DNA of 64,000 nucleotides from Monosiga brevicollis MX1 (lineage: Eukaryota > Opisthokonta > Choanoflagellata > Craspedida > Salpingoecidae). Position 1 is the first letter of the stretch. Each line of letters opens with the position of its first letter. This document shows positions 31,795-62,936 of the stretch, one piece after another. The notes under the pieces are model-generated. The model had not been told where the DNA came from and did not search any database. It was given only the letters and a program-made list of their open reading frames with translations. The DNA is taken from contig NW_001865073.1 of assembly GCF_000002865.3 (NCBI RefSeq), positions 82,780 through 146,779 of the forward strand, read 5' to 3'. Both the position numbers and the translations under genes were made by a program.

Positions 31795-34700
31795 ATGTCA
31801 CCACTGTTGACCCGCTGGCTTGTGCTAGCCGCACTGGCCTTGGTTGCCAGCGCTCAATATCCCCCCATCTTTGGCCAGACGTACTACGTTTTCTCCACCG
31901 TTGAAGACCAGACCGGAAATATCGGCACGGTTGTGGCAACCGACCGCGACGGTGATGCCATCCAATACAGTTTTTCCGGCTCCAGCGTTCAAAGCACCAC
32001 CTCCACTCTGGCAGGGCAACTGGTCATCGACACTAGCACGGGCACCATCAGCACGCCGACTGGCCTCTCCGAGAGCGGTCTCACGACCGTCTATGCCCTC
32101 TCAGGCTCCCCCCGCTCCTCGGCTCAGTGTAGCGTCGTTCTTCAGGTGGCGGACATTAACAACAACCCTCCCACCTTTGACAAGAGCCAGTACAATGTTT
32201 CCATTCCCGAGAATACGGCCTCCAGTAATTTGGTCCAGGTCATTGTCACCGACGCTGATACAACCTATGCGAATCAAGACTACACCCTGTTCTTCATTGA
32301 AGGCAACCAGGGGGGTGAATTTCTCGTCAGCACGTCCGGCATTGTCTCTCTCAACTACACCCTCGACTATGAAAGACAGACAGCCTACCGCCTGCTGCTG
32401 GTGGCCGAGAACGTGGCTGCGCCCCCCCTCAACGACACGGCCTGGATCAACGTGCTGGTGACGGATCTTAACGATAACGCCCCGATTCTGAATCCAACCT
32501 TGTACAATGTCAGGTCAGTCCTTGGCGTTCATTCGACTCTCAATCCCGACCCCAACTGGGTATCCGCTTTTCTCATGCCTCGTTTGTACGCGATTTGACC
32601 CTCCACAGCGTTAGTGAAGCCACCCCTGCCAATTCGATCGTGGCCACGGTGGTGGCAACAGACGCTGATCGACACGACACCGTGAGCTACAGCATCGTTG
32701 ACACAAATATTCCTTTTAGTATTGGCAGTAGCTCGGGCCAGCTGAGACTGGCCACGGCGCTTGACTATGAGACTCTGCAAATGTACAACTTTTCAGTTCG
32801 TGTGACAGACTCAGGTACCCCCAGTCGCACCGCCACGGGCACTGTTTTAATCCACGTTCAGGATGTCAATGACAACGCCCCGCGCTTTGGCCAGCCCGCC
32901 GGCTACGCCATTTCTGTCCCGGAGAGCTTCAACGTGCAGCAACAACTCTTGCTCGTTTCTGCCACTGATGCTGACCTACCCTCAACGCTCAACGGTCAAG
33001 TTCGGTATGCCATCAACGAAACCTCAGACTTTATCATTGATGCCCTTTCCGGCGCCATCCATGCCGCCGCAGCCTTTGACTACGAAGCGCAGCAGTCGTA
33101 CACCTTTGGCGTGTATGCGCATGACCTTGGTTCGCCCCAACGCACGACCCGGGTCTCAGTGGCCATTACCGTGACCGACGTGAACGATAACACCCCTCAA
33201 TTTCAGGCCCCAAACTATGCAGTCAGTGTCTCAGAGTGGACAGCGAGCGGTGCCGCCATTGTCAATCTGTCCGCAACAGACGCAGACCTGCATGACACGG
33301 TACTCTTTTCACTTCGCACCACCTCCGTGCCCTTTGGTGTTGACCAAAACACGGGCCAGCTTTCCGTCGCCGGCACCCTCGACTATGAGACAAGGCAATC
33401 CTACAACCTCACCGTGCGCGTCTCCGATACGGGCTCGCCTTCTCGTCACGCTGATACCTGGGTCCTGGTGACCATCCTCGATGAGAATGACCATGCCCCT
33501 ATTTTCGGCGCCCTAAATGGCTACACCGTTGCCGTTGCGGAAGATGTGAACGTTGCCAACCCCTTGCTAACGCTCTCCGCCACGGATGGCGACCTCCCTA
33601 CCACTGCCAACGGCCAAATTCGCTACAGTCTGAACGGCACGGCGTCCTTTGCCATCAACGCCACCACCGGGGTGATCCACGCGCTCGCTCCCCTCGACTA
33701 CGAGCAAACGCAAAAGTATGTCTTCACTGCCACAGCTGCTGATCTGGGCACTCCACCGCGCTTTGCCACCACCACCGTCACGATCAATGTGCAAAATGTC
33801 AATGACAACGTTCCCGTCTTTGGAGCTGCCTCGTATGCCGTCAACGTCTCCGAGTCCACTCTTAAGAACACGGTCATCCTTCTCGTCTCGGCCACTGATG
33901 CTGACATTCTGGACTCTGTCCGCTTCAGCATTCAGACCGCATCAGTACCCTTTGCTGTTGGTCAAACATCCGGAGAGCTTTCCCTGGCTGGCACCTTGGA
34001 CTACGAGCTGCGCACAAGCTACAACATCACACTCCGCGTTACCGACACAGGGTCGCCCCCGCTGTACTCTGAGGTGCAGGTGCTGATTTCCGTTTTGGAT
34101 GAGAATGACAACGCGCCGCGGTTTGGGGCAGAATCTTATCAAACATCCGTGCTCGAGTCGGTCAATGTGACGCAGCCGCTCTTGCGCGTCTCGGCCACCG
34201 ACGGTGACTTGCCCGCCACCGCCAATGGCCAAGTTCGCTACGAGCTCTACAACGCTCTTTTCTCTGATACAAACTTCACCGTGGATGCCATCACGGGCCA
34301 GATCTATGCAACACGTGCCCTCGACTATGAGACAGTGCAGCGCTATTTCTTTACTGTACAAGCTCATGATTTGGGTTCGCCCAGGCGCAGCTCCCCGGTG
34401 ATTAATGTGACGATCCTCGTCATCAACGTTAACGACAATGCTCCTCTGTTCGTCGATGCGCCCTATAGCGCCAACATCTCCGAGGCCACCAGCATTGGGA
34501 CGGCTGTCCTTGCCGTGGCGGCAACTGACGCCGATCTCGAGCAAACCCTGTCGTTCTCCATCGTGGATGCGGCCGTTCCTTTTGCCATCGGGTCCCAATC
34601 AGGAGTTATCACGCTTGCCAACGCGGTTGATCATGAAACCGTGCTGTTCTACCGTTTTAACGTGCGCGTTCAAGACAGTGCTAGCAGTCCCCTCAGCGCC

Positions 34701-37700
34701 TTGGCCACAGTGACCGTATACATCACCAATGTCAACGACAATGCTCCAGAGTTTAGGGCCGATACCTACAGCTGCACGATTGCAGAGAATTCAGTGGCAG
34801 GTACATTTTGTCAAACAGTTCAGGCCGATGACGCCGATCGCGTGAATAACGACGTAACGTACACCCTCAGCAACACGCAAGGCCGCTTTCGGATCAATCA
34901 TCTGACAGGTCGTATCGAGACCACTGCGCCACTTGATCGTGAAGCGCAGGCGAGCTACTCGCTGGTTGCTACAGCTGTTGATTCCGGCATCCCGCCTCGC
35001 TTTACCGATGTGCCGGTGATTGTGACTGTTTCGGACGTTAACGATAATCCTCCGCAGTTTGTCACAAAGAGCTTCACCCGCTCTGTGCCTGAAAATGCGG
35101 CTGGGGGTACCGTTCTGGTTACGCTTGAAGTGACCGATGCCGATGTTGGCGACGCCTCGGCCGTTGCCTTTAGTATCAACGGTGGGGAAGACCAATTCGA
35201 GGTCATCACAACGACGACCACCCCGGGCAATGCCGGAACGGCGCGACTTCGCATCAAGAACACAGCCACCCTTGACTATGAGGCGGTCCGCAACTATACC
35301 GTCCGTGTTACTGGTAAGCAGACGAATTCGACTCTGGTGTACCAATGTGTTTGAGGCAAGGTGCTGAAGCGGTTTTTTTTTTTTCACATGACACCCATTT
35401 TGATCGTGTTTGATCTCTTATTATCTCACCCCCATTTCTCTGCCATCTGCCGTGACAGCGCTCAATCCGGGAACGAGCATGTCCGACGTCTGTACGATTG
35501 ACATTCTGATTACAGATATCAATGACAACGCCCCTGTTTTTGGTCGCACCAGCTATAGTACACGTATCGCATCCTCGACTCTCTCGGTCTGTATGCATCT
35601 TTGGCTATTCGTGCTTCAGAGGGTCCCTTGCGCCCGGTCGTGTCGTGTGATAAAATGGAATGGAAGATAAGTTGAGTTCTTGTGTCGCCTCATTTTTTTT
35701 CTTTTCTTTTTTCTGTATTATCATTGCCTCGCATTCACCAGGGCACCACAATCTTGGCGCCACGCGCCACGGATGTCGACACGGGTGCTGGAGGTGTCAT
35801 CACATACAGTCTATCACAGTCGGATGCCGCCTCGTTTACTGTCGACGCCACCACTGGTGCCATCAGCACGGCGCGTGTACTCACAGCATCTGATCGCAGT
35901 TTCTCGTTTGCCATCATTGCACGAGACGGCGGTGGCCTTTCCACTCAAGCGACAATCTCGGTGACAGTGGCCACAACGTCCAACGATCTGAACCCTCAGT
36001 TTGCTCAAGTCTCCCAAATCACCTCCGTTCTGGAGAACTCGCCTGCAATGACACGCGTCGCTCAGTTTGTAGCAGCCGAGGCCGACCAGGGTCTCAATAG
36101 CCGCCTCAACTATACCTTGGTGGATGACCGCAATGCTAGCTTTATTGTCAAGACCGAGCTCAATACCAATAACCTGCGTGTTGCCAATGTTTACACCACC
36201 CGACCTTTTGATTACGAATCTGGTGTTGTGTCTTACATTCTCACGGTCGTCGCTACCGACTCAATTAACACGGATCGCCGAGGCCAGGCTACCTTGATCC
36301 TCTCTGTGGAGAACGTCAACGATATGGCCCCCACTTTTGCCCGCCAGACCTTTTATTTCAACTTTAGCGAAAACGCCATTGTCGGCGCCGTTGTTGGCCA
36401 ACTTGACGTCACAGATGGGGATCCTTTGGACGGTGGTGGCCGATTCTACGTTCTTTCCGACGACGTGCCTCCCCAGCTCACCGTCACGTCTGATGGTGTT
36501 ATCAAGGTGCAACAAACCGTCAAGTATGAAGTCTACTCCTCCTTCACCTTCACCGTCCGAGCAGTTGACTTTGGTGCAAACCAGCTGTCTTCCAATCTGT
36601 CGACTGTGATTGTCTCTGTTTTGGACGAGAACACCTACGCCCCGGAAATTTTGGAGCCCTCGGGTGAGGGATATGTGTGCTTAGTTGAGGAGGGCCGACC
36701 TGCGGGCACACGCTGTTCCACTCTTACAGCCATAGACTATGTAAGCACCTTCTTTGTCCTTTCATTCGAGTGTTGTAATGTTGTGTTGGGTTTTACTTTT
36801 TTCTTCTTTTTTTTTTTTTTTTTGTTTTCCTTTTGTTTTTGACCTCATCTCGTGTGTGCGTCAATAGGATGCTCCGGGCACGCCTTTTTCCGAGCTCGTG
36901 TGGTCCTTAACGGGCTCGCCCGAATTTGCCATCAATAGCTCTACTGGCGTGATCTACACCACATCTGTGATTGACAGCTCGGTTCAAACCAATTTCGCGC
37001 TCGTGGCCACCGTGCGCAACCCTGTGGGCAACGTTGGCAGTGATAGCACCAACGTCATTGTTCGAGTCGTAGAGCAAAACCTTTACGGGCCCCAATTTGA
37101 CTCTGCTGTGCGCCTCGTTGAGCTGGCCGAAACCGACTCAGCCCGGGTCATCGTAGACTTGAACGCTAGCGATCCGGACCACAGCAGCGTAGCTGACGTT
37201 GGCATCACATACACTCTCAAAGAGGCGGTGCCAGGCTTTTCAGTTGTCGCCTCAACGGGCGCGCTCCGCGCCGATGCGGGCGTCCTGGATTACGAGACCT
37301 TTTCTCGCAAAACCCTGACCGTGGTCGCCACGGATGATGGTGGAATCCCACGCTCTGCCGAGATTCTCGTCGTTTTGACCCTCACCGATGTCAACGACAA
37401 CTTTCCCACTTTTACTACTGATAATCTAGTCGTCGAGGTTGCCGCTGACGCAGCTATTGGCTCGATTCTTTCACGCGTGACCGCTCGCGATGCAGACTCT
37501 GGCTTTAGCGGCAGCGTCCTTTATTCTGTCACTGGTGGTCCCGTGCCGTTCGCCGTCGACCGCTCTGGCTACCTAACGACCACGGCAGCACTCGATGCAC
37601 TGCCTTACTCGTTTGCTGTGACAGCAACGGATGAGGGTGATCGGGATGGCTTTAGTGCACTTCAATCACTGACCCCTATTTCAATCACCGTGCGCCTACC

Positions 37701-40700
37701 TGACCCCGGGTCAGACTTGGTCCCTGCTTTTGATGTTGCCTTTGCACAAGCCAACGTCTCTGAAGACGCCTCGATTGGCCTTGGTATCCTTGATATCCCC
37801 ATTGCTAACATGTCGCTTGTGGCCTTTTTTGAGCTTCGCTCTGCCGATGGCACCAATGCTTCTGATTTTGCCATTGATCGCAATGGACAATTGGTCGTGG
37901 CCAACTTTCTCGACTATGAAACCAAGACGTTTTACAACCTCACCATCATTGGTACGTCATTTTGGCTTGACAATGGCGTCACGGGTTGTTTTTTTATATG
38001 GTGCTTGCCCCCCTCCCCCTCCATCATGGTTGTTTGGTGTTTGAGATCTCGGGTCCGTCTCAATTTCATTTCTCCTTCGTTTTTCTCTTGCCTGCACATA
38101 GCACATGGCTATGGGCCGAGCACTGCCACGTCTTCAATGTGGGTGGCCATCAACATTCAAGATATCAACGACCACGCTCCAGTATTTGATGCGGTGCAGG
38201 TTCGCATCTACGTCTCTGAGTTGAAGGAGGCCGGCTCGATTATTGGCCGCGTGCGGGCCACCGACAAAGACGATGCCGCCCTTTATGGAGCGGTGACCTA
38301 CCAGCTGATCGAAACATTCCCGGCATTGACTGGCTCCGCCCGCTTTTTGCTGGGCGTGGATGACAGCGACAACGCAGCCACCATTCAGCTCTCAGACCCA
38401 AGCCCGCTTGACTACGAACAAGTTCAGCTCTACACTCTGACGATCCGTGCCATAGACGCCGGTTTCCGCTTTGCAGATGCCACTGTCTACGTCGAGGTGC
38501 TCGATGCTCCAGATGGGCCTGCGCTGCAATTTGTTGACCCCGTTGCCTCAATCAAGCTGCCCACAGGCTTCTCTGGTGAGGTGGCGACTTTACGCGCTGC
38601 CTTTGCCTCGCCGGCGCCGCAACAAACCATTACCTACACGCTAACCCGAATGACAGACTTTGCCATTGGATCTGTTGCCAACTCAGCGGGCCTTATTTCG
38701 GCCCCATCCCCTTTGAGCGATGGGTTCTACTCTCTGCTCGTTCAGGCGTTGAGTAGTGCGGGCCAGTCTGTTTCCACCACGCTGAACGTCACGGTCGCGC
38801 CCGTGACGCCCACCGACGTGCAATTCTCTGCTAGCAATTACAAGGCAACCCTTGCAGAGTCGGCACCTTTGAGTACCAACGTCGTCACTGTCTCTGCCAC
38901 CGTGAACGTGCGTAAAACCTTTGTTGCTTTATTCTCTCGCTCGCTCTTCTCGTGCTCGCTCTTGCTTGCCTCCCCCCCCCCTTTTTTTTGAACCAAACAG
39001 GCCATGATTCGCTCATGTTGTCAACGATCGCTTCACGTCATTAGGGTGCCTCATCGGCGAGCATGCGATATGCTATCGTCGGTGGTGGCGATCGTTTCTC
39101 AATTGGCGCGAGCTCGGGCGTAATCAGCCTGGCAGCTGCGCTCAACTACGAAGACGCCAGTTTCCATGCATTGACTGTGCGTGCGACGGAGACTGCGTCG
39201 GGTCAGCAAGCTTTGGCCACTGTGCGTGTAACCGTGGTCAACATCGTTGAGAGCATTCGCTTTGAGGCGAATGTTTATGCTGTTTCTGTGAGCGAGTGCA
39301 ATCACGGGGACTTGCCAGCCTGCAACTGGACTGCCCCGGTTCTGCGAGCCTTTGATGAAGGCAATAATCTTGTCGCCGCCACTTTCAATGTGATCGGTGA
39401 CACACGCTTTGTCATTGGGCAGGACGCTACGCTTGCATATCAGGTCGAATTGGCTCCGGGTGCCATCTTTGATTACGAGGCCACTTCGGTCGTCACTACG
39501 ACTTTGCAGGCAACAAGCAACACCCTGACCACCTCCGCCACGCTCCAGATACACGTGCTGAATGTGGATGATCTGGCCCCAGTCTTTGTTAACAACGCTA
39601 GCCTTCTCGAGCCCATTGTTTCCGAGGGCCTGCCCGTCGGGAGCGTCGTGACCTCGATTGCCGCCTACGACCCAGATGTTACCACAGACGTGGCTCCGAG
39701 CCTCACTTTTGCCCTTGCGGAACCGTTCGAACCCTTTGAGATGGATGGGACCTCAGGCACCCTGCTGCTTCGCTCACCCCTGGATCGCGAAACTCAAGAT
39801 CGATATGCGCTCAACGTTACGGCCACGGATCTTGTGGGGCGCACCAGCGCCGTTCTTGTCAACGTCACGGTAACTGATCTCAACGACAACGCCCCTGTCT
39901 TCAATGAATCCGTTGCGTGGGTGGAATTCACCTCTCCAATTTTGGATGGAAGCTACGTGACCACTCTCAATGCGTCTGATGCGGACATTGGGGTCAATCG
40001 CCAACTGCGATTTGCCATCAGTCGGCTTCATGATGCCGGTGACTTTGTCGTCAACGCCGAGTCGGGCGTTGTGGAGCTCTCGCGAGCTCTTGACGTCGGA
40101 ACTTACTCCGTCATCGTTACGGCCACAGATCAGGGGCAGCCTCAGCTCAGCAGTGATCCTGATGCCAACGTGACCGTGGCTGTACTTCCTCCACCCACAC
40201 GTCCCAGCTGGGTGGTTCCAGCACTCTTGGTGCGCACGCTGAATGAGGAAGCTCCTGCCAGTACCATTTACACACTGACGCCGCTTATCGATGACCGAAC
40301 AGTTACGACAGAAGTAGTGCTCCTCACTGACACCACCGACTTCGAGGTGGTGGAGAGCAATGGCAATGTGCAACTTCGCAGCACTGTCCCCCTTGATCGA
40401 GAGACCCAGGCCACGCATACCCTACTTCTAGGCGTCCGCGACCCCGCTGTGAGCCCTCTGATGGAAAATTTGACGGTGTCAGTGGAACTTCAAGACGTCA
40501 ATGATCACGACCCCGTGTTTGTGCACCCGTACATTCAGGTCAATCTCTCAGAGGCCGTGCCCATCAACACCACCGTTGCGAGCGTGTTGGCGACCGACCT
40601 GGATGATGGTGCCAACGGTCATGTCCGATTCTCCGTCGATGCAGGTTCGGAATCCCCCTTCTTTTTTGTGGGGCCAGCAGGCCTCATTGTGACCCGAGCG

Positions 40701-49700: not shown

Positions 49701-52700
49701 AGTACGGGCCAGATCACCGTCACCGCCGCTCTTGATCGCGAGACTGTCTCGCGCTATGACCTTGTTGCGTTAGCTCGGGACGCTGGCACGCCACAACGCA
49801 ACGCAACAGCCCTCGTCACGGTCAACGTGCGTGATGTCAATGACCGTGCCCCTGTTTTTGCGCAAGCCATGTATACTCTGTCGCTGCCTCGTGAGACCCT
49901 GGCCCCGACAGCGCTCGTCAACGTGAGTGCGAGTGATGCCGATCTCAATTCTGTTCTCACCTACCGTGCCCAGTACACTGAGCCTGCTGGTGTTTTGGCC
50001 GTCAACACTGCGGGTACCGTGCGCCTTGCGAACAGTCTTTGTGCGCTTTCAGCCATCTCCTTGGTCCTTGTCGTGGAGGCGTCAGATGGTACCAACGTAG
50101 GCTCGGCCATCGTTCAGGTCAACGTAACGGACAGCAACTCTCATGCCCCCGAATTTAGCATGCCCTCCACGACCTTTGCCCTGCCCCTGGGCACACCGGC
50201 GGGCAGCGATGTCACAAATATCATTGCAACGGATGCCGACGTGGCCTGCGGTGGGGGTCAGCTTACGTACGCCATCCGAAGCGGCAACGTTGATAATGTC
50301 TTTGCGCTTGATACCTTCTCCGGGGCGCTTTCGGTGGCGCGAACGCTGACCAGCGACATGCCGGGCCAGTTCACCCTCGTGGTTGCGGCATCCGATGGCT
50401 CACTGTCAACGACGTTGCAGCTTGACCTCTTCCTTGTGTCGCAAGTGGTCCCCAGCTTTGCAGTCGCTGGCACGGGCTTTCGAGCTCCGGGTGTAAGCTC
50501 GGGTGAGGATCGCACGGCCTCGACCAGCGTCGGCTTCTTGGTGGACTCAAATGTCAATGGTCAAGGCACCTTGACCGCCAAGTTTGGGGCGTTAACGGCC
50601 AGCGCCCGTTATCGCGACGCCTTTAAACCCGCCGCTTCAATTCGGGCTATTCTTCTTACGGATGAAGTGTGGTTTGATGATGCCCAGGTCCGCGTCGCCC
50701 TCCAAGTGCGTGACGAGGACCATAGCGTCAAGGTCGCATCGACCACTGTCGTTGTACAGCTCGTGCCGGAGCAAGCTCTTTTGGACATTGCCACCACCAG
50801 CATTTCGGCCCAATGCACCGTAGGGAGCTCGGGTGCTTGTACCGTTGAGACGGCCAGCCTTCCTGATGCTTATTTTGTGCCCGGACAATCCTACCAGGTG
50901 AGCGTGCAATACGGCATCAGGGATGGTCCGATGTCCGAGTTGGGTACTGTGCGCCTGCGCTCGCAAACGAGTGCTCTGACCGACGACAGTTATGTCGATG
51001 ATGTGGTCCAGGAATTGCCTGGCCGACCGCTGTATCGAGGCCAGCGCTTCACGGTTCCGGTCTTATCAGACCCCTCGTATGACGTGCGGTCCTTCACTTT
51101 CTCTATTGTCACGGATTCCAATGTGTATCTGGAAAGCGTGAGCTTTGACAGTTCTCGGTGGACGCTGGTGCGTACAACTTCAGGCCGCACCAACGGCATC
51201 GTTGCAAACCTGAAAGATGCCAGTCTGGCGCGCCCAGGGGTGATCGGGCGCCAACAGCTTCTTTTGATCACCTATCGCGTTGAGGCGACCGCTGTTGAGG
51301 ACGCTGCCTCCTCTCTCAGCTTTACCGTCGAAAACTTGGTTACCACCGAGGGCAGTGTGCGCGTGCGTGGCCTTGTTGGCTCACAACCTGGCACCTACGC
51401 TGATCGTATCGGTGTAAGCCAGGCTGGGTCTGTTTTCATTGCTTCAAACGCCGTCAAAGGCATCCTGCCCTACGTCGATCAAAGTCAGTTGGTCAACACT
51501 GCCGTCCTCACAGGCTCCGTCGTAACTGCAAACATCAATGTGCTGGCGTGCTATGTCTGCTCTCGCTCCAGTGCGGTTGACTTTTGCGATGCCCAGTGCA
51601 GCACTGTCAGTCGCAGCCTGGCATCTTGCAGCTCAGCTGATACTAATGTGGCCGCCGTATCGGGCTGTCAGGTCCGCTTGGCTGGCACCGAGACCACAGG
51701 CGCGGCCTCGCTCTTGATGACCGTGACGTACAACGGGCGCAGCAACTCCGTCCCGCTGCAAGTTTGGCATCCTAGCAACACGGTGCTGTCCGTGAGCGAC
51801 TCCACTCTCAATGCATTTGCGCGCTGGATGACGCCGGCACCAAGTTGCAGTCTTCGCTACCAGAGTGCTGATGTCACCGTCACCAGTACTTTTGCAGCCG
51901 GTGGCTCGCGGGTCTTCACCGTGGACGTTACGGAAGTTGCGCGTGCACAGCTCGTGGCCGGAAGCGCTGCGGTAGCCGTGTCCACTGCTTCGCCACCCAC
52001 GGTCACGGGCATGGCCCCTGGCAGCAGCTCCGTGCGTCTCATGGCCGGAGGTCGCTTGGTGGCCGCAGTCCCCGTCGAGGTAGCAAGTGATCCCGTCGAC
52101 ATTATTGGCTTGGATGTCGTCCTGGCCACGGCCATTTTCGTACTTGAGCCCAATGACAATGTGCGCTTTGAGCGCCTGTCCATGGTTCCGGCCGAGTGTC
52201 AGCTAGAGACGGCCCTTGATGTTGAGGGCAAGTCGGCGACCGTTGTGGCCTCGGCAGTAGCATCAGACGGCACGCGCATAGCCGTTACCGCTGCAGACGG
52301 CCTGGTGCTTGCCTCATCCAATCCCACGGTCCTGGTTCCTGGAGTGGACGAAGTCTTGGCGGGGTCGGAAACGGATGCTGCCATCCTCTCAGCAACGTGG
52401 GCCGCCTGTGGCGAGACCTTGGCGACCAGCGAGCAAGAAGTGTCGGTAGAATTGGGCGATCCGATTGGTGTCGTCTTTACCCAGGTAGCCAGCTCCGTCG
52501 TGCACTCGAGTGACCCACTGGCGCAGCATGGCAGTGTAGCTGTCAAGTCCAGCATCCGCGTGTTTTTGCAGTTTGATGGCAGCGCTGACAAGGACGTTAC
52601 CGATGATGCGCGCACCGTCTTCAATTTCCCTGCTGAGCTCGTGGATGTGAGCGTTCCTGCAGGCTCGACCACAGGCGAAATTGTGGCCCGAGAAGCTGGT

Positions 52701-55700
52701 GTGACGGGAACCGCCACCATTACCGTTTCGTTCACCCATCTCAACGAAACTCTCATCGCCAGTCTTCCAGGCAACAGCGTCAGCCTGGACGTGGTGCGCC
52801 TAACTTCAGTCGAGGTCGCCTCTGCGCCATTCCCCGTCTACTCAGGCTCAAGCTCATTTTCGGAGACAACCTTGAGCCAAATTGGGCCAACTGGCATTTA
52901 TCAGCAAGCAGAGCTCTCCATGACGCTCGTGGTCAGCGATGGGCGGACCTTTTCCGTCGACACACACGCAAACGCAGACTACGGCGTGTACAGCCCAGGC
53001 ACCACCTCGAGCGCTACGGGAGTCATCAGCATTGCACGCAGCGGCAGTGATCGGGTCGTGACGGCCCTGGCTGCCGGAACAGTCGATGTAGTTGGCTCTT
53101 TTGCTGGCATGCCCGTGTCGTCAGCGCTTGTGCTGACGGTCAGCGACACCCCCGTCACCGTCACCGCCCTGCAGAGCATGACCTTCCCTAGCACAGTTGC
53201 TGGCTTTGCCTCGACGGCAACAGGCCAAGCTCGAATGCACGCGCTTTTCAGCGACGGCACTCGCTACACAAACCTGTTTGCCTCCAACGGCAATCCAGCC
53301 CTGCCAGGCTTGGTATCCTTCAGTCTGAGCACCACTGTGCCGGCCAGCGTGGACCAAAACCGTGGCACGGTCACGCTTCTTGGCAACTACCATGATTATG
53401 TGACCCTCACCGCCACTGCCGTCGGAACTTCTGTGACGGCCTCGGCTGACTTTGCTTGCAACCTTTACCCTGACACCAACGACGCGGACCTCGGGAACCT
53501 TAACGGCATTCCCTTGCCTCCCACCGCTGTTGGCGCGCAGCTCAATGTGCGCGTCGCGCTCAACACGGGAAGTGTGGCCTTTGGCGCTTTTACAGTTAAC
53601 GTGTACTACGATGAGACGAAGCTTCAGGCCATCGATGATGGCTTTATCCTTGGCAATGACTGGGAGGATGGCCCTTTTTCAGCGCGTACGAATAATCCCC
53701 CGGGCGAGTATCAAGTGACGGGTGTAGCTGGCGGCTCCAGCGACCGCGGAACCAACTACCACCTGGTGACGCTGCCCTTCACGGTCATTGGATCTGGACT
53801 AACTCAGCTGACGGGCGTTATTGAGACCCTCAACCGCGCGGACTCGGCAACAGCCGTCCCTATTGGCACTCCCAATCGCCAAATGGTGGCCGGCGTGGTA
53901 AATGTGCAGCTGACGGGTGCAGACCGTCGCCGGAGCATTCAAGTGTCCTCGAATAATGTGACATTCGGCGTTGACTATGAACACGCTTCTTCACGTTTGA
54001 ACGAGGACTCGCCTCAACGCGACGTTGCAGTGCCACCCCCCATGTTTACTCGGGTGCAACCAAGACTTGAAGCCGCCCGCGCTCGGTACGCGCAGGACTT
54101 GGCGCTTCATGGCACACCGGCCAATGTGACCCGCCAGCGCCGAGCCGCCTGCACGGGCAAGGCTGAGTATGGCGATGCGGACGGCAACTGCGTCTTTGAC
54201 ATTGCAGATGTGGCATATACTCTGCAGTACATTGTCGAGGCTTTGGTCGACTTTACCGGCAGCTTTGGCGCCGCTTTTGACGATATCACCGAGCGCCAGA
54301 TCAAGGACATGGATGCGGATCGCAATGGTGTTGTGGACGGCACCGATGCCTTTTACATGGTCAAGGCCCTCGTGCTGCTCTCCCGCTTCGTCGATAACCT
54401 GGTGGCCTCTCCCATCAATGACACAGACGGCTCGGGTTGCACATTGCGGCTGGCCGTTGACGTTTTCGAAGCGGGCGACGAGATCGATACGTCCCCCGCC
54501 ACGGCACCTACTACCGAGGTTTACTTTCTCCTCATGTCAACGCGCAGTACCATGAAGCAAGAATTGCAAGATTCGTCGGACAACTGTGTCGCCTGCGAAG
54601 GCGAGGTACTGCCTCTTGTCCTGCAAAGCACTCGGAATAGAGCATATGGTGGCGTGGTCAAGGCTGTACGCGAGGGTGAGACGGCGACTTGGCGCATGGC
54701 CATTCAAACGGACATGACGTACGAGACGGTGGGCAGCATCGGCGTGTCGGTGCTCGTAGTAACCTTTTCCCCTACCAGCGAGACCAACGACAACCGCCTC
54801 GATACCATTGTTGGCCCGCCGGAGCGTGTGCAGAGCTTTACGTACAATGATCGACTCGAGTTTGACCTCCCGGTCTTCAACGGCCAGTCGGTGGGCTTTG
54901 TCTCCACCGGCTTCAGCCCTCATGTGAGCTTTATCAACGACCTGGCTTCATCGGCCTGTACCAACGATCATGCGCCCGTCTTTGAAAACGCTACCTACGA
55001 AGTCGCGGTATACGAGAACCTGACCGTGGGCAGCATTGTACTGCGCGTGGCCGCCACAGATCAGGACGTGGGCCGCAGTGCGCAGCTCACTTACTCGATC
55101 GTAGCCCGGAACGACGACCCTGTCAACTTTGTTATTGATAGCTCGACCGGCGATATTCGCACCACCTTGCCCCTCGACCGCGAGACCGTGGCGCAGTTCC
55201 AACTGGTCATTCAGGCCCGTGATGGCACCTTCCCTTATCGAACTAACACAACCACTGTGACGGTAACGGTAGCAGACCTCAACGATAACCACCCTGTCTT
55301 TGTGGCATCCCCCACGCCAGGAGCTCGTTTCACGCCCGCTGGGGGTTTGCTGGCCGAGTACGAGGTGGACGTGCGCGTAGGCTCAGCAGAAAATACGGTT
55401 ATACTGCAGCTCAACGCCACTGATGCCGATTCGGCCCCGTTTGCCACCATCAGCTATGAACTGCGAGGCTCTTCCGCCTCCAATGGCGAGTATGTTTTGA
55501 ATGCAGCCACGGGTGAACTTACCGTGGCGGCGCTCATTCTGCGTGAGAGCGGAAGCACGGTCGTCTTCCAGGTCAGCGCGGTCGATTCAATGGGCCTCGC
55601 AACCGATGCCAACGTCATTCTGAACTTGATCTATGAAGTGGACCTGCTGTACTACACGAATGAATACGAAGGCCGTGAGGGCAGCGTCACGGCGCACCTG

Positions 55701-58700
55701 GGCCCCGCGGCCATCACGCAGTCTTATTCCACCGTTGCGTCTGCCAACTCGCGCTTAAGTGCCCGCCTGATTACTACAGACGTTTACCCAGACGCTACAG
55801 CACTCAAGGTGCTCTTGCACGTTCAAAATGATGTCTTTGGTGCCCCTGCGTCTTCCGTGTCGGTGCGCGTGCAGGTGACGCCTGGACCAGATTTACTCTT
55901 TGACCTGGGCGGTGCCTCGCCCACCGACTTTCTCCGAGAGGGTACATGCCTGGCCGGCGTGGCTACCAACCGGTTCTCGCGCTACGGTGTTTGTGTGGCC
56001 ACTGTCTCCGTTCCAACGGCGTGGTTCGCGCAAGCAAGCGCCATCCGTCATTTGCGCGTGAGCTACAACTTTGTTGACGAGCGTCTCACGCCCGCAACTC
56101 TGGGTAACGTGCAGCTTCACCCCGAGGTCACCTGGAGTCTCTCAGACAACGTGCTCGTGGTTATGCCCCTGCACCCTGTTTTCATTGGGGAAGAGGCGAC
56201 GGCCACGGTGTATGCCAAGTCGAATTTTCCCATTACCAACTACGAATTGCGTTTTGAATCATCCGCTTATCTGCCCATCGTGGGCATCGATTTTCCCTCG
56301 GATGCTTGGTCGGGACCCGTCTCGGCTTCATCTGATTACCGGTATACGGTCAATGCCATCCGCGAGCTAGATGATGTGGCCGATGCCGAGACGACCGAGC
56401 CGGAGGTCATTGCCTACGTGCGGATGCGCGTCGCAGACGCCGCTTTAGCCAACTCATCCCTAACATTGGCCTGTGTCATCTCGGCACTGGGTTCCAGCAA
56501 AGAGTCCTCCATCCGTCCGGGCGGCCAAGCGACCCCCGTCGAGGCCACCTTTGTGGACATGGCCACCATCAGCGGCGTGGATCGCACCACCACAGGCCTT
56601 GTACGCCCAGCCGCGCTTCAGGTACAGGCATTTGTTGCCCAAGCTGCTGCGACTGAACTCGTAAACACGGCTATTTTAAGCGGCCGCCCAGTCACGTCCG
56701 GCGTGACCCTGGTTAGCGCGCTGGCCAACGGTACACTAGTCTTGCAAGACCCTACAGCCGCTGCTGTGTCTTGCGTAGCCGGCAACACGACTGTGCTCAA
56801 CGTGCGCGAGGACTGCAGCGAGCTGCTCCTCTCGGGTGCTGAGTCGCATGGCCAAGCGGAGGCTTCGGTTATCTTTGCCCTTGCGCGCAATGATTCCGCC
56901 GTGCTTCTTGCGGAGGCTCATGCCCGAGTGTGGGCGCCGACCCTTCCTGTTGAGCTTGAAGTTGACGACACCACGCTACGACGTGTGGCAAACTGGTCTT
57001 GGTTTGACACCGATGCCAGCATCTGCCGACCAAAGTATCAAAACACACGCCTGCGGGCTTTTGCCACGTTTTCGTACGGCGCTCAGGCCTACCGGGCACG
57101 CGTGTCGTCCCTTGTGGTGCTCGGCGCATCCTCAAGCAACACGAGTGTGGCGCGCGTCGAGAGCGACGGGCAGGTGAGCGCTTGGAGACCTGGCAACATC
57201 ACAATTGCCATCGACCACGCGCAGCGTCAAGGTCGAGACCTGGGCTCGGTGACACTGACTGTGCTGGAAGAAGATGCCAGCAGTGCACTCGGCTTGCTAG
57301 TTTCCCGTCTGGAGCTGCACGCGTTCACCAATCTGACCGCTGCCCCCTTGGCCAGCCCGCTCGTAGACCTGGATTCGAGCTCGGTCGTCTTTGTTCATCA
57401 AGTTTTTGACGTCGAGGACCGCGTTGGGGCCGTAGCTGCCTATGCCGTCTTTGAAGATGGCGCGCGCATGGAACTCAGTCCCGAGCAGGGTCTGCGCCTG
57501 AATTCGCTGGATCCCGCCGTTTTAGCCGTGTCCGCCACGGGTGTCTCATCCTACGACCACGCCCATGTGGTCGCCAAGGGTGCTGGGTCAGGCCCGCTGC
57601 TCCAGGGCACGTGGCTGGCTGAATGTGCGAATGACAGCATGGCCGAGCTTGCCACGGGCCAAGCGCAAGTGCTCGTGACCATTCCCAAGCCCTACGCGGT
57701 CGAAGTTACTGTGACTGCTCATGAGTTGACTCGACTCACGGACCCAGCGGCCTTGGCGGGCGTACCAACCGAGACTGCCGTGCGCGTGGTGCTGCTGTCT
57801 CTTGCTGCGGATGGAACAACCGTGCGTCGGGACATGACGACTGACGACCGCACCATCTTCAACTCAACCCTGGCCAATGGCCTGTTTTCAGCTTGTGCTG
57901 ACAACGACGTTGTGTGCGGTGCATCAAGCACAGCCCTGGGCTCCTCTGGCCCCGTTGTTCGTTCTGTCAGCGACGCAACAGGCAATGGTGCAGCGTGGCT
58001 GCAGGTGCACTTTACGCATGTGGACGTGGTTGGCAATGTGTCGTTGACCCTGGTTACTGCCAGGGAAACGCGTGTGGAGGCTCACCCATACCCTGCGTAC
58101 ACCGGCAGCAGTGCGTACGACGTGTCTGTCCTGCGACGTTATGCCAATCCTAACACCGCAGCTACAGCCGTGCGTCAACGGGCCGTTTTATCCGTCGTGG
58201 TGGAGCTATCAACAGGCGAGGAGTTGGACGTCACCTCGTTGCCCTCAACCACACTCCGCTTGACAACCATTGAGAATGAGACGGTGCCATCAACGCTGGT
58301 GATCCTGGACCTGAATTTGCGCGTAGTATCCGTTGCTGCTGCTGCAGAGACAGTGCTGCTAACCTCGGACATTTACGTGGTAGCTCGCGCGACCTTGGGC
58401 AACTTTACCGCCCTCCCCGTGGCTCTGCGAGCCACAGACGAACCCGATGAGCGGGCCGCCGTGGTAGGCTTTGAAAACATTCGGGTAGCCAACGCCCCTG
58501 TCGTGAACGGTGCGTTCGTTTTGCAGGTCGTGTCTGGTTCTTACGGCCAGGTGGCCTGCGGTGCGCACTTTAGCGACGGCACACAGCATCCAAATCTGGT
58601 GGCGGCAGACGGAACCTTTCTCCTGCCGGGTGCGCTCAGCTTTGGCAGCTCTCAAAGCAGCGTGATCACGACAACCAGCACGGGTCGCCTCATTCTCTCG

Positions 58701-61700
58701 GAGAACTATGAGCTCCCCATCACCATCACCTTGGGCTTGCGCAACGCCATCGTGTTTGCGAGTGTTTCTGTCATTGCCAACCCTCTGCCCGCGGTAGGAG
58801 ACGTTGATCTGGGCCGCCAAGGTAACTTTCCTTTAGCCGATGTCCTGGTAGGCGAGAGCTTTGACGTCCCGGTTTACATCAACACGGGCACCTTGCCCTT
58901 GGGCGCCATTGATCTGCAGATTGTGTACAGCAGTGCTCACCTGGAGATTCCTACCACCTCGGCCGGTGTGGCTGTGCGTCGTGGTCGTGACTGGCCTGGT
59001 GGCAGCGTGTACGCGGTGGTCGATCCTCCCGGAACGCTGAGCTTTGGCGGTGTCACGGCCGTTGATTCAACGGCCAAGGGTGAACTGCTTGAGATTGCCG
59101 TCGTCACCTTCCGAGCCCTGACTGCGACCGCAGGCTCAATCCCCATCCAGGGGCACGTCGTGACCATGGCCTCCAATGACTTGCAAGGCACTTTTATCGG
59201 CTCGGCGGAAGAGCGAGACTTTGTTGCTGGATGGAACGTGTTTGTTCGCGTCGCGGCAACAGGCAACAGCCGACGTCGCCGTGCCGAAAATACAGTCGCT
59301 CGCTCCAGCCCAACTGAAGCGGCTTTAAGCATGGATCTGCCCTTGCCATCGGCTTTGACGCCCCGTGCACGCCGCAGCGCGAATTCTTGTACCACTGCAC
59401 CTTGTGCTGCCTGCCCGCTGACGCGCGAGAACGGGGACACAAACGGAGATTGCGTCTTTGATATTCGTGATGTTGGCTATCTGCAAACCTACTTGGCCGA
59501 GCGTCAACTGGACTTTGCTCGCGCCCAAGGCCAAATTCTCAACGCAAGCTTGATCCCTGTCCAGCTGTCCAACATGGATGCCAACTTGGACTCGGTCATC
59601 ACGGTGGCAGATGCTGAGTTCTTGGCGCGCGTCAACTTTGGCATGCTGCGCTTCCCGGCCGAGCTGACGATCGTCCCAGTGCAAGACAAGACCTCGGGCG
59701 GCTACATCAATGTCAACGTCACAGTGCGGGGCAAGGGTGACACGCAGACTCGCAGCGACAAGACCATGATTTTTGTTGACTTCGCCTACGATAACCCCAG
59801 CGTGCAGCCGCTTTTTGAGAGCACCCAGCTGTACAAAGGAACGCGTCGCACCGAGGGTGACAAGCCCGTCAGCATGGCGGGCTTTGTCGTACAGGCCGAA
59901 CGCGAGGGGCCTTTGTACAACAACTTTGAAGACACGACGCCTCCCAACCGATGCTATCAGCAGGCAGCCAGTGGCAACACATGCTCAAGCGGCGTGCGCG
60001 GCCCCCGGTTCTACTTCAATTCGGGCACCGAGACCTGCGAATCGTTTGAGTACTTTGGTTGCGGTGGCAACACCAACAACTTTGCCACTCTGCAGGCCTG
60101 TGTGGACATGTGTGTGCCCTCGTTCAGGCATTCGGTCATGCTCAACACTTCGCTCAAGCTTGACAATATCGGTGTTTCATTGGTGATGGTGACCTTCAGC
60201 TCGGAGGGTCAGGTCAACGTCGGCCGAGACGTCTTTTTGACCGGCGTGGTCAGTGGTGACGTTCCTTACGCGACATTAATCGACTACCAACTCAGCCTGC
60301 AGGCCTTTGCGGGCGCCCCGCTGCAGACAGTCCAGGTGCTTGCTTCATCCGGTTATGCGCCCCTGTTGACCTTTAATAACACGATGACCACGGCCGAGGC
60401 AGTCAACGATCACGCGCCAGTATTCAGTGGGACGTTACAAACGCGAATTCGCGAGGATCATGACAATAGCACCGTATTGTACCAGCTCAACGCCACGGAT
60501 AATGATGAAGGCCAAACTGGCCTGATTACCTACAGGCTGGAGAGCAGCTCCGTGATAGTGGAGGGAGAAGATTTTGTGGTGCCCCCCTTCCGTCTGAATG
60601 GCCGCACGGGTGCGGTCACCCTCATGCAGGCCATTGATTACGAGGTCAGCAAGCAGCACAATGTGACGGTGGCCGCCACGGATAATTCACCACCGCGGCC
60701 CCGTACCACGCTGGCCACACTGGCAGTCGCCGTGACAGATGTCAACGACAATGCACCCATTTTTGCACAATCATACGCCGACATCCGCATTTCGGTCGAT
60801 ACACCGGTCAACACGGCTCTGACGCGTCTGTCAGCCACAGATGCAGACTCCAACACAGTAGAGGGCGGCCCAAATGCGCGCATCACCTACCACATTGTCG
60901 GTGATGACGCCTTTGCGATCAGTGATACCGGGCTGATCACAACCGCTTCCGAACAAAGCCGTGCTCTGCGCTCCACTGTTCGGTTCATTGTCAACGCGAC
61001 GGACGGAGGAACACCCACGCTCTGGAGCACGGCTGAGGTTGTCGTGGCCGTCATCAACGACGACTACCTGGTTACCCTCACCACAGCCCCTGACTATGAC
61101 ACCTTCAACAGCCTCTACGATAACGCCACCGGCATTCACCCTTGCCTGGAAGTGCTCGCCCAGACCCTCAACGGCGAGCTTCGTGACATTGAGGTGTCAC
61201 GAAACCCCAGCTCGCCCACAGAGTTGACGGATATTACATTTTACGTGCTCACGTCGGGTGGCGAGGTGCGCAGCGCCAGCGAGGTGGAAGATGACCTCCG
61301 CAGCATCACCGACTTTCAGCAGTGCACGCTGCGTGCGCTGGGCGGCGATACCGACAATGCATTCCAGGTATCGCTGGTTCACTTTGACGACAGCGGCTGC
61401 CGTGATCCGTTGACCGACTTGAGCAATTTGACTAGAGTGTTCCATGGCGAGTGCCTCAATGACGAGGCTGCTGGTCGCTCGTCCCGCGTGACGGTTCTCT
61501 CGAATGGCCTTATGGATGTAGACATTTACGAAACCCCCAACTGCAATGGCGTAGCCCAGCAGTTTTTCAGTATCACGAACAATACGTGCGTGACTGTCCC
61601 CTCCTTGGACCCGGATCGTTCTGCCCCTTACTCGTTCACGGCCACCTATGAGCTCTTTGAGGATTCGGAGGAGACGGCCAGTACGAGCAGGGCGGCCATC

Positions 61701-62936
61701 CCCGCAGGCTTTATTGCAGCCGTAGCTTCGGCTTCGTTGGTCGCCTTGATCATCTTACTCGTGTTGTTGATCCGCTTCCAGCGTCAGCGACGTCAGATCA
61801 TTAACGCGCGCAAGATGGTTCTGGCTCATCACGGTGACGTGACGTTTGGCACGCCCGAACCTATGCGCAAAGAGCACGACCAGCAGACTGTGTTTGCGGG
61901 TGGCGAGGTTGACCCGTTGACGGGTGAGGTGGTACAATACAAAGAAACGACCAATGTCGTGGACGAGGATCGAACGGGTGGCCCCATGCCGTCCATGTTT
62001 GGTGGTCTGCGCTCCAACCCGCTGTTTGGCAACCGAACCGCCTTTTCGGGCTTGGGTATGGAAGGTGAAGAGGAGGTGGTTGCTTCCGACTCGGACGAGT
62101 CGGACGATTTATCTGACCTGTCCGCCGGGGCCATGGACGAGATTATGGACGATCTGAGTGATTTTGAGATGTTTGAACAGGATTATCTTGAGGCCACCGC
62201 TGCTACCGAAGGTGCCCCTGCGCACGCTGGTGGACAATTCAAGAACCCGCCCTTCCTTAGTGGTGGTGGTGGTGGTGCGTTTGACTTGGATGATCTTTCG
62301 GACTTTGAGGACGTGACTGAGGATGGACCAGCAGAGCCTTACCTGCGTGTGGAGGCTTCAGACGACTCTGACTTTTCAACCGATGATGAGGAGGGCGGTG
62401 CCTTTGGGGCCATGGACGATCTCCTCAACATGGCACCACTCCGCAGTATTCTCAAGTCTCCTGGTGCTGATAGCACCAATTCTGGCCCGCGCAAGGTATC
62501 GTTCGGCGAAGATGACAGTGATGCCGACGATGACGATGATGAGCGTCATGATGAAATGGGCCAAGCTACGCTTTATCGTCAACGCCCGGGGCGCAATCAG
62601 CGTCGCCAAATCGACAGCGTAGATATTGAAGCAGAGCTGGTCATCCCACAAGTGCAATACGAGGACGTCGTCGCCAATCTGCAACCCATGTCCCAAGGTC
62701 AGGGGGGCGGACCTGCAAGTACCCACGGTGGTGCGGATCCGCAGGATAGTGACTCGGACTTTAGCACTGGCCCAGCCATTGCGGACCGTGACAGTGTTAG
62801 CGAATCAGACTCGGACGATTCCGACTCGGACTCGATGGACTATGGCTCGGGTTTTGAGGATGAGGACGATGATGTGGGCACTTCTCAATTTGCCGCAGTC
62901 CGCGGCATGTGGAACTCTTCCCATCTTCGCAATTAG
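31795..62936 (+). CDS. Giant coherin-type cadherin with two TMEM132-like cassettes, cohesins and dockerins
   Basis: Type I membrane protein of about 10,110 residues in seven exons: 31795-32513, 32609-35313, 35459-35586, 35742-36740, 36868-37951, 38102-38907 and 39045-62936; all phases agree. Signal peptide MSPLLTRWLVLAALALVASA. Residues about 21-5,950 are more than fifty cadherin repeats with PEN, DAD, LDRE/LDYE and DVNDNAPxF motifs. Cassette A spans about 5,950-7,680 and cassette B about 7,680-9,490. A membrane-proximal domain, a transmembrane helix (about 9,697-9,725) and a 385-residue acidic tail follow. Cadherins with cohesin domains, known as coherins, have been described in choanoflagellates and sponges; the match here is by domain content. 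The likely role is calcium-dependent adhesion at the cell surface. It has no catenin-binding tail that I can recognise. The ATG at 31795 gives the signal peptide directly. Confidence 0.93.
32609..34760 (+). repeat. Two-cadherin superrepeat, about 620-bp period
   Basis: Two repeat types alternate: one with DTVxFSIxxxxVPFxxG and LDYE, the other with TDGDLPxTANGQVRY. Equivalent points fall near 32676, 33295, 33912 and 34543, a period of about 617-630 bp (two cadherin repeats). The high similarity implies recent expansion in two-repeat units. Confidence 0.85.
41341..50260 (+). other. Cadherin tract with alternating cysteine-marked repeats
   Basis: In about twelve neighbouring repeat pairs, the first repeat has a Cys (usually LCA or VCA) where its relatives have LDRE/LDYE, and the next repeat has a Cys just after its DxD motif (DADC, DRDC, DPDC). 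Cys codon pairs lie near 41361/41590, 42004/42216, 42625/42840, 43246/43451, 43846/44045, 44457/44670, 45063/45262, 45637/45840, 46247/46456, 46876/47081, 47501/47715 and 50036/50246. The linker inside each pair is worn down (for example SVNAYPP, AINAHKP) compared with DVNDNAP elsewhere. Ordinary repeats lie between about 47.9 and 49.9 kb. Confidence 0.88.
50460..55640 (+). other. Cassette A: TMEM132-like ectodomain, cohesin, dockerin, two cadherin repeats
   Basis: Order: N-terminal beta domain with Cys pair and LPDAYF (50,460-51,000); cohesin-like domain from LYRGQRFTVPV (51,019-51,470); TMEM132-type Ig-like domains from LVNTAVLTG through SLRYQSADVTVTSTF (51,490-52,480); further Ig-like/BIG domains to 53,460; second cohesin from DADLGNLNGIPLPP (53,480-53,920); linker with DRRRS and TRQRRA; dockerin-like EF-hand pair GDADGNCVFDIADVAY and MDADRNGVVDGTDAFY (54,166-54,400); an unnamed beta domain (54,400-54,950); two cadherin repeats (54,960-55,640). 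Confidence 0.83.
55641..61060 (+). other. Cassette B: second TMEM132-like ectodomain, cohesin, dockerin, Kunitz, two cadherin repeats
   Basis: Same order as cassette A. N-terminal beta domain with GVCVATVSVPTAWF; cohesin-like PLHPVFIGEEATATVY (from 56,167); Ig-like part with LVNTAILSG, CSELLLSGAESHGQ, RVWAPTLPVELEVDD and ECAN...ATGQAQVLV (56,658-57,700), which is closer to TMEM132 than cassette A is; further Ig-like domains to 58,790; second cohesin from GDVDLGRQGNFPL (58,800-59,260); SRRRRAEN and PRARRSAN; dockerin-like NGDTNGDCVFDIRDVGY and MDANLDSVITVADAEF (59,436-59,660); unnamed domain split by a Kunitz module; two cadherin repeats (60,410-61,060). Confidence 0.83.
59945..60120 (+). other. 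Kunitz/BPTI-type domain inside cassette B
   Basis: Six cysteines in Kunitz order, from CYQQAASGNTC through PRFYFNSGTETCESFEYFGC to GGNTNNFATLQACVDMC. The FxYxGCGGNxNNFxT core is diagnostic. The P1-like residue after the second Cys is Ser, so a trypsin-inhibiting role is unlikely. Confidence 0.92.
61061..61690 (+). other. Membrane-proximal extracellular domain of the giant cadherin
   Basis: About 210 residues with scattered Cys between the last cadherin repeat and the membrane, starting DYLVTLTTAPDYDTFNSLYD and including ELTDITFYVLTSGGEV. The alternation resembles the alpha/beta membrane-adjacent domains of long cadherins such as CDH23, but this is a shape-level guess. Confidence 0.5.
61691..61780 (+). 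other. Transmembrane helix of the giant cadherin
   Basis: AAIPAGFIAAVASASLVALI followed by ILLVLLIRF and the basic stop-transfer QRQRRQ. It is the only strong hydrophobic helix besides the signal peptide. Confidence 0.93.
61781..62936 (+). other. Acidic cytoplasmic tail with a PP1-docking-like motif
   Basis: About 385 residues rich in Asp, Glu and Ser. DDLSDLSA, DDLSDFEMF and DDLSDFEDV form a thrice-used LSD motif. SILKSPG then RKVSFGED (codons near 62,440-62,510) fits the RVxF consensus of protein phosphatase 1 partners. The end contains many SD/DS acidic casein-kinase-2-like sites. No catenin-binding region was recognised. Confidence 0.7.

Follow-up and report, generated by a model that had tools for sequence, protein, structure and literature searches.

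Does the choanoflagellate Monosiga brevicollis encode copies of the ectodomain of the animal TMEM132 family within a giant cadherin, and what might such copies do at the cell surface? The question is raised by a stretch of 64,000 nucleotides from strain MX1 (NCBI RefSeq assembly GCF_000002865.3, contig NW_001865073.1, positions 82,780 to 146,779 of the forward strand), hereafter referred to as the window, which is part of contig C22 of the genome searched in this work (39.5 Mb in 57 contigs). An initial annotation of the window had proposed two tandem TMEM132-type ectodomains embedded in a cadherin. This observation is confirmed, while the interpretation attached to it is partly supported and for the most part already published. 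The region is best explained as encoding a giant cadherin-type membrane protein in which a reusable extracellular cassette of about 1,500–1,600 residues is present twice, the copies having diverged. Each copy joins a known five-domain TMEM132 core to a second cohesin, a linker with furin-type sites and a dockerin, and it is this downstream unit of cohesin, candidate cut site and dockerin, of which no report was found in an open-access library, that deserves follow-up.

The TMEM132 core of the two cassettes

Both cassettes lie in a single stop-free frame, whose residue n begins at position 39063+3(n-1); all window coordinates and frame residues are given on the + strand. The upstream cassette A spans approximately 50526–54962 (about 1,480 residues) and the downstream cassette B approximately 55632–60416 (about 1,600 residues). 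They are not in tandem, as had been claimed, since cadherin sequence intervenes between them. The frame and the first five domains of each cassette are arranged as follows.

39063–62936, + strand: main open frame (7,957 amino acids, stop-free), in which a long cadherin array precedes cassette A, further cadherin sequence lies between A and B and again after B, and a transmembrane-like segment is followed by an acidic tail
50526–50981, + strand: cassette A, domain 2, a beta domain of the Ig_TMEM132_2nd type (alignment; family support from paralogues)
50994–51416, + strand: cassette A, cohesin 1 of the TMEM132_3rd type (alignment; family support from paralogues)
51429–51773, + strand: cassette A, BIG1, Ig_TMEM132_4th (PF16070, 8.1e-12)
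51777–52091, + strand: cassette A, BIG2 of the Ig_TMEM132_5th type (1.1e-3, below cut-off; alignment)
52092–52463, + strand: cassette A, BIG3 of the Ig_TMEM132_6th type (alignment)
54969–55631, + strand, boundaries approximate: cadherin sequence separating the cassettes (Pfam cadherin stretch at about 54996–55271; the rest read from the sequence)
55632–56141, + strand: cassette B, domain 2 (PF23481, 0.14)
56142–56576, + strand: cassette B, cohesin 1 (PF23039, 0.014)
56598–56939, + strand: cassette B, BIG1 (PF16070, 1.7e-21 genome-wide and 2.2e-22 when scanned singly)
56943–57275, + strand: cassette B, BIG2 (PF23486, 2.1e-16)
57291–57692, + strand: cassette B, BIG3 (PF23487, 0.037)

The homology is most evident for the fourth TMEM132 domain. 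PF16070 (Ig_TMEM132_4th) scores 80.9 bits in cassette B and 49.9 bits in cassette A, both above its curated cut-off, and matches 14 places in the genome, with a split over frames on contig C54. As the same family is silent in 14 of 14 control genomes, chance similarity of motifs was rejected as an explanation. Ig_TMEM132_5th exceeds its cut-off in cassette B, stays below it in cassette A (23.9 bits, cut-off 28) and likewise matches none of the 14 controls, whereas domains 2, 3 and 6 of cassette B each fall below their cut-offs. Within the window, no domain other than domain 4 of both cassettes and domain 5 of cassette B thus passes, and the assignment of the other domains is predicted from paralogues and alignment. 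Among 10 distinct complete cassettes of the genome that were scanned singly, domain 4 matches in every case, domain 2 in five (best 8.6e-5), domain 3 in four (best 2.1e-5) and domain 6 in four (best 1.2e-7). In the genome-wide searches, domains 2 and 3 nowhere surpass their cut-offs; domain 6 does so at two of four places, neither of them in the window, and gives a match below the cut-off in one of the 14 controls. Hence, the proposed homology and domain order are borne out, the first five domains of each cassette matching TMEM132 domains 2–6 in sequence, while in the window itself the profile scores of domains 2, 3 and 6 are weak.

The motifs from which the relationship had been proposed are all present, i.e. 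LVNTAVLTG and LVNTAILSG, a Cys followed by AGTETTG or SGAESHG, VWHP and VWAP, a Cys before YQ, and a closing AAC or AEC. Read by eye, the Cys pair of BIG1 is kept in nine of the 10 cassettes (C11a lacks both residues), and both the BIG2 Cys preceding YQ and the BIG3 Cys occur in all 10. Searches of the PDB gave weak results for these domains: cohesin 1 reached scaffoldin cohesins at 0.62–0.83, behind a lectin at 0.045, BIG1 reached BIG domains at 0.11–0.45, and BIG3 a LigA-type domain at 0.014, beside unrelated chains from 0.039. TMEM132_N (PF15705) has no match in the whole genome at E<=1, which together with the matches to domains 2–6 indicates a five-domain TMEM132 ectodomain core and not a full TMEM132 protein. 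The C-terminal family PF15706 is not among the Pfam matches of the window tail at E<=1, no genome-wide search having been aimed at it.

This core has precedent. According to Sanchez-Pulido & Ponting (2017, PMC6030884), the TMEM132 ectodomain consists of a conserved region (domain 2), a cohesin-like domain and three BIG domains, whose cysteines are proposed to form disulphides, and the same five domains occur in identical order in the lefftyrins, coherins and hedglings of choanoflagellates and sponges. TMEM132 domains in premetazoan cadherins, the headline of the initial annotation, have therefore been known since 2017. The proteins described here agree with these families in joining cadherin arrays to the five domains; they differ in the cohesin–multibasic–dockerin unit, of which the available text of PMC6030884 makes no mention, and in that on contigs C11 and C27 the cassette is present although no cadherin was detected there. 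Compared with animal TMEM132A–E, the order of domains 2–6, the cysteines of BIG1, BIG2 and BIG3, the membrane location and possibly a motif for protein phosphatase 1 (PP1) in the window tail are shared, whereas TMEM132_N is missing, giant proteins carry the cassettes in several copies, and those of the window add a second cohesin, a multibasic linker and a dockerin.

The second half of the cassettes

Where, then, does a cassette end? An alignment of the paralogues shows that the unit common to complete cassettes is much longer than the five TMEM132 domains. The initial annotation missed that each window cassette continues past these five and also contains another cohesin, multibasic sites and, behind them, a dockerin. 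After BIG3 follow BIG-like residues, cohesin 2 (starting near GDxDLG), a variable linker, the dockerin and a C-terminal segment; Pfam scores are to be read against cut-offs of 24.1 bits for PF00963 (cohesin) and 22.9 bits for PF00404 (dockerin).

52464–53474, + strand: cassette A, 337 amino acids resembling further BIG domains, their number inferred (alignment; Ig_TMEM132_6th at 0.11 only)
53475–53924, + strand: cassette A, cohesin 2 (PF00963, 28.0 bits, over cut-off)
53925–53933, + strand: cassette A, RRR immediately following cohesin 2, short of a complete RX[RK]R (read from the sequence)
54132–54143, + strand: cassette A, RQRR, furin-type consensus, residues 5024–5027 (motif)
54162–54416, + strand: cassette A, dockerin with two strict calcium loops (PF00404, 18.1 bits, below cut-off)
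54417–54962, + strand: cassette A, conserved C-terminal segment (alignment; no Pfam match)
57693–58793, + strand: cassette B, 367 amino acids resembling further BIG domains, their number inferred (alignment; no Pfam match at E<=1)
58794–59267, + strand: cassette B, cohesin 2 (PF00963, 27.8 bits, over cut-off)
59271–59282, + strand: cassette B, RRRR, residues 6737–6740 (motif)
59364–59375, + strand: cassette B, RARR, residues 6768–6771 (motif)
59424–59681, + strand: cassette B, dockerin with two strict calcium loops (PF00404, 18.9 bits, below cut-off)
59703–60416, + strand: cassette B, C-terminal segment, into which a Kunitz domain is inserted (59949–60113)

Genome-wide, PF00963 passes its cut-off at six of the seven places found, and in a set of nine modules, each running from cohesin 2 to the dockerin, it matches four members (best 6.3e-18). 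The two cohesins of a cassette are related, with hhalign probabilities of 95.9% in one direction and 94.3% in the other. PF00404 matches seven of the nine modules (best 1.7e-6) and passes its cut-off at six of 13 places in the genome, five of which are in cassette carriers; the paralogues on C38, C10, C27 and C31 are among those that pass. The window copies, which score below the cut-off, are for this reason termed dockerin-like and regarded as dockerins by kinship to these paralogues. A dockerin profile run against the PDB has dockerins as its best matches, 4dh2 at 6.5e-8 (in two stretches) and 4fl4 at 7.9e-6 (positions 2–74, covering both loops), and both strict calcium loops (F-hand) are kept in 10 of 16 modules, including those of cassettes A and B. 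Two scans across prokaryote genomes yielded no relative at E<=1e-3, a result of little weight, since only close relatives are within reach of such a scan. The Kunitz/BPTI domain (4e-15) in the C-terminal segment of cassette B is not found in that of cassette A.

Furin-type sites in the linker

In all 16 distinct modules, the RX[RK]R consensus of furin-type proteases lies between cohesin and dockerin. The modules were collected from searches of this genome and with profiles built on the nine modules, run over the carrier frames; near-identical copies on C38, C40 and C11 were counted once. The genome holds at least 16 of them, as these searches score best candidates only. The profile from which the modules were listed (A10) includes linker columns; profiles of cohesin only and of dockerin only recovered each module too. 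The motif is also present in seven of the seven modules outside the profile-building set, compared with 2.8% on average of equal-length random windows from the same frames. In seven of the 16 linkers the motif occurs twice, behind the cohesin and again closer to the dockerin; in a further three (window A, C11 and C31b), a single full site is accompanied by RRR behind the cohesin. In 12 frames that together comprise 37,064 amino acids and contain 14 of the modules, the motif occurs 28 times; 20 of these occurrences are inside linkers, which amount to 619 amino acids, and four of the remaining eight directly follow a transmembrane-like stretch. The window frame follows the same pattern: three of its four motifs are in the two linkers and the fourth lies just past the transmembrane-like segment.

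61698–61772, + strand: transmembrane-like segment, about residues 7546–7570 (read from the sequence)

The linkers are rich in arginine and have no conserved sequence besides their basic motifs. Both features could be accommodated if cohesin 2 and dockerin bound each other across a linker that stays intact, its basic stretches serving instead to bind sulphated sugars, for example, or as sites at which external proteases cut only when required. We consider this unlikely, because the order of the motif is kept and not composition alone: shuffling each linker would leave RX[RK]R in 2.4 of the 16, and arginine-rich composition was rejected as the sole cause of the sites. Moreover, one frame in the genome matches the final part of Peptidase_S8 together with P_proprotein, as in furin-type convertases. 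Cleavage of the linker is, as far as can be judged from the sequence, probable.

A cleavable cohesin–dockerin clasp?

A cut in the linker would cost the protein its outer part unless the chains were held together, and as the linker is flanked by a cohesin and a dockerin, a clasp is the simplest reading. A proprotein convertase would cut the presumably exposed linker in the secretory pathway, and the cohesin of the upstream chain, aided by calcium, would then bind the dockerin of the downstream one. The resulting surface receptor would consist of chains, three in the case of the window protein with its two cassettes, held by clasps that are strong yet reversible and respond to calcium and force; opening of a clasp could shed the outer adhesive array. 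A cut linker combined with an intramolecular, calcium-dependent clasp is the best explanation that we can offer for the unit, and it has about an even chance of being correct. Cohesin and dockerin are known partners in bacterial cellulosomes, where they usually reside on different proteins. The similarity to these consists in the Pfam matches of cohesin 2 and the dockerin and in the known dockerin structures retrieved by the dockerin profile; unlike in bacteria, both partners would act within one eukaryotic polypeptide, on either side of a candidate protease site. Notch and adhesion G-protein-coupled receptors are cut in the secretory pathway with their chains held non-covalently, and the logic proposed here would be alike, with the cohesin–dockerin pair as the holding part.

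The same sequence evidence would also suit an adhesive between cells, in which the outer part is cut and released or exchanged and its cohesin binds a dockerin left on a different molecule or cell. The separate location of the partners in bacteria and the presence of several carriers with diverged pairs in one genome lend this idea some appeal. Yet, the cohesin adjoins the dockerin in 16 of 16 modules, which favours pairing in cis, and only one dockerin over the cut-off, on C4, lies outside the modules, so that we judge pairing in trans improbable.

Several observations weigh against the intramolecular clasp. The window dockerins do not reach the PF00404 cut-off (18.1 bits in A and 18.9 bits in B versus 22.9 bits), this family matches four of the 14 control genomes, in two of them over the cut-off, and EF-hand proteins other than dockerins also score in the PDB search, with a single loop each (2jnx at 1.7e-4, 1jfj at 6.4e-4). 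Strict calcium loops are lacking altogether in C11 and C54a, and C34a, C34c, C54b and C37 have just one. The dockerin on C4 (37500–47499, minus frame, near residue 1997) has RRRR just before it, and no cohesin was found beside it in the stretch of frame examined. In addition, cohesin 2 and dockerin may pair in trans or have partners other than each other. Furthermore, the modules are paralogues of one genome, so that 16 of 16 does not represent independent trials. Finally, one of the 14 PF16070 places, C40c, is without a second cohesin or dockerin. The last point and the low dockerin scores of the window would also suit a much more modest view, in which only the published presence of TMEM132 domains in cadherins matters, an architecture that PMC6030884 already describes, and in which the dockerin-like segment and the basic one have no function in common and act as structural spacers. 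The conserved calcium loops and the occurrence of linker sites in every module make this view very unlikely. A search of the open-access literature, which did not extend to Nichols 2012, Peer 2009 and the supplement of PMC6030884, where dockerin could be mentioned, found no report of a cohesin–multibasic–dockerin unit.

Other carriers in the genome

Is the cassette bound to cadherins? Contig C11 holds a complete frame of 5,127 amino acids, closed at both ends, with two cassettes, a transmembrane-like segment and TNFR-like repeats (TNFR_c6 at 28.5 bits, just under the cut-off), in which Pfam detects no cadherin at E<=0.01. For C27, a Pfam scan of 3,332 amino acids of a frame of at least 5,471 found EGF repeats and no cadherin. 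The cadherin motif D.ND..P is absent from the frames examined on C34, C38 and C54a and occurs once in that on C31, as judged from motif inspection and not from whole-frame Pfam scans, with introns that could hide more. C10 encodes cadherins together with a Y_phosphatase domain (8.3e-36). The window protein with its cadherins and cohesins is presumably a coherin, and the C10 carrier with its cadherins and tyrosine phosphatase domain presumably a lefftyrin. In the latter (C10:61000–67600, minus frame, residues 1934–2156), the C-terminal phosphatase domain reads VHDDVGAGLSG at the expected position of the HCX5R loop and may therefore be inactive.

The converse exception is C40c (contig C40, minus frame, residues ~1236–1860), a bare five-domain core that ends at the BIG3 Cys and V.V segment and is directly followed by cadherin sequence and a transmembrane-like segment, in a protein that also has two full cassettes. 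The bare core of C40c and the lack of detectable cadherins in C11 imply that the core, the clasp half and the cadherins are separable. The two full cassettes of the C40 protein are 53% identical over the compared stretch, but the DNA of their cohesin 2, linker and dockerin shows no difference over 942 bases, with another 299 identical bases before it and 14 after it, owing to recent gene conversion, duplication or an effect of the assembly. Cassettes repeated within one frame are 96% (C38) and 98% (C11) identical at the protein level, which suggests recent internal duplication.

Probable upstream exons and cytoplasmic tail

Upstream of the main frame, cadherin repeats continue in frames that are probably earlier exons of the same gene. 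Behind the transmembrane-like segment, the tail contains a possible two-part PP1-docking site.

32595–38988, + strand: region containing three upstream frames, in which Pfam finds 9, 3 and 6 stretches of cadherin repeats
62445–62504, + strand: tail motifs SILK and then RKVSF, a possible two-part PP1-docking site (motif)

In 20,000 shuffled tails, the SILK…RKVSF pair arose at a rate of 0.0002, and RVxF alone at 0.11; a WIRS motif is not found in the window tail. Animal TMEM132 proteins are said to carry a PP1 motif (PMC6030884), and WIRS motifs count as a further cytoplasmic feature of that family. None of the tails or tail stretches of six other carriers (C31, C11, C54a, C40, C10 and C34; that of C34 being uncertain and that of C40 taken from the next open-frame stretch) contains the SILK/RVxF pair. 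As a tail feature common to the carriers, it was hence rejected, and for the window, the only one of the seven with the pair, it remains a lead. Read by eye, the tails of the C40 and window proteins have in common the motif GGE(I/V)DPxTG, from which they may be close paralogues, and the 2,188-amino acid frame on C54 has a cytoplasmic tail with an apparent PDZ-like stretch.

Evolution and significance

How do the cassettes relate to animal TMEM132? A loss of cadherin repeats, as had been suggested, need not be invoked for the origin of TMEM132, as the cassette also occurs in the C11 carrier without detectable cadherin. Likewise, C40c, with cadherin sequence following its bare core, illustrates that a TMEM132-like core can occur without the second half. 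Cassette trees, built from the paralogues of this genome, support only the grouping of C40a with C40b and give no support at the forks relevant to the relation between A and B or to the direction of change. A wider proposal, which we put forward tentatively and rate as somewhat doubtful, is that these proteins could form a class of surface receptors with cadherin-, EGF- or TNFR-like parts that are made of convertase-cut chains held by calcium-dependent clasps within one protein, and that animal TMEM132 might descend from the N-terminal part of the cassette, which in C40c is already found by itself, without cut and clasp.

TMEM132, a family of animal nerve-cell proteins, is tied to hearing loss and anxiety traits. 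If the pair of cohesin 2 and dockerin binds, the module would gain a concrete job, namely that of a cleavable, calcium-dependent clasp. In vertebrates, dockerin is not detectable according to PMC6030884. Binding of the pair would thus also raise the question of what the cohesin-like domain of TMEM132 binds, now that the dockerin is gone.

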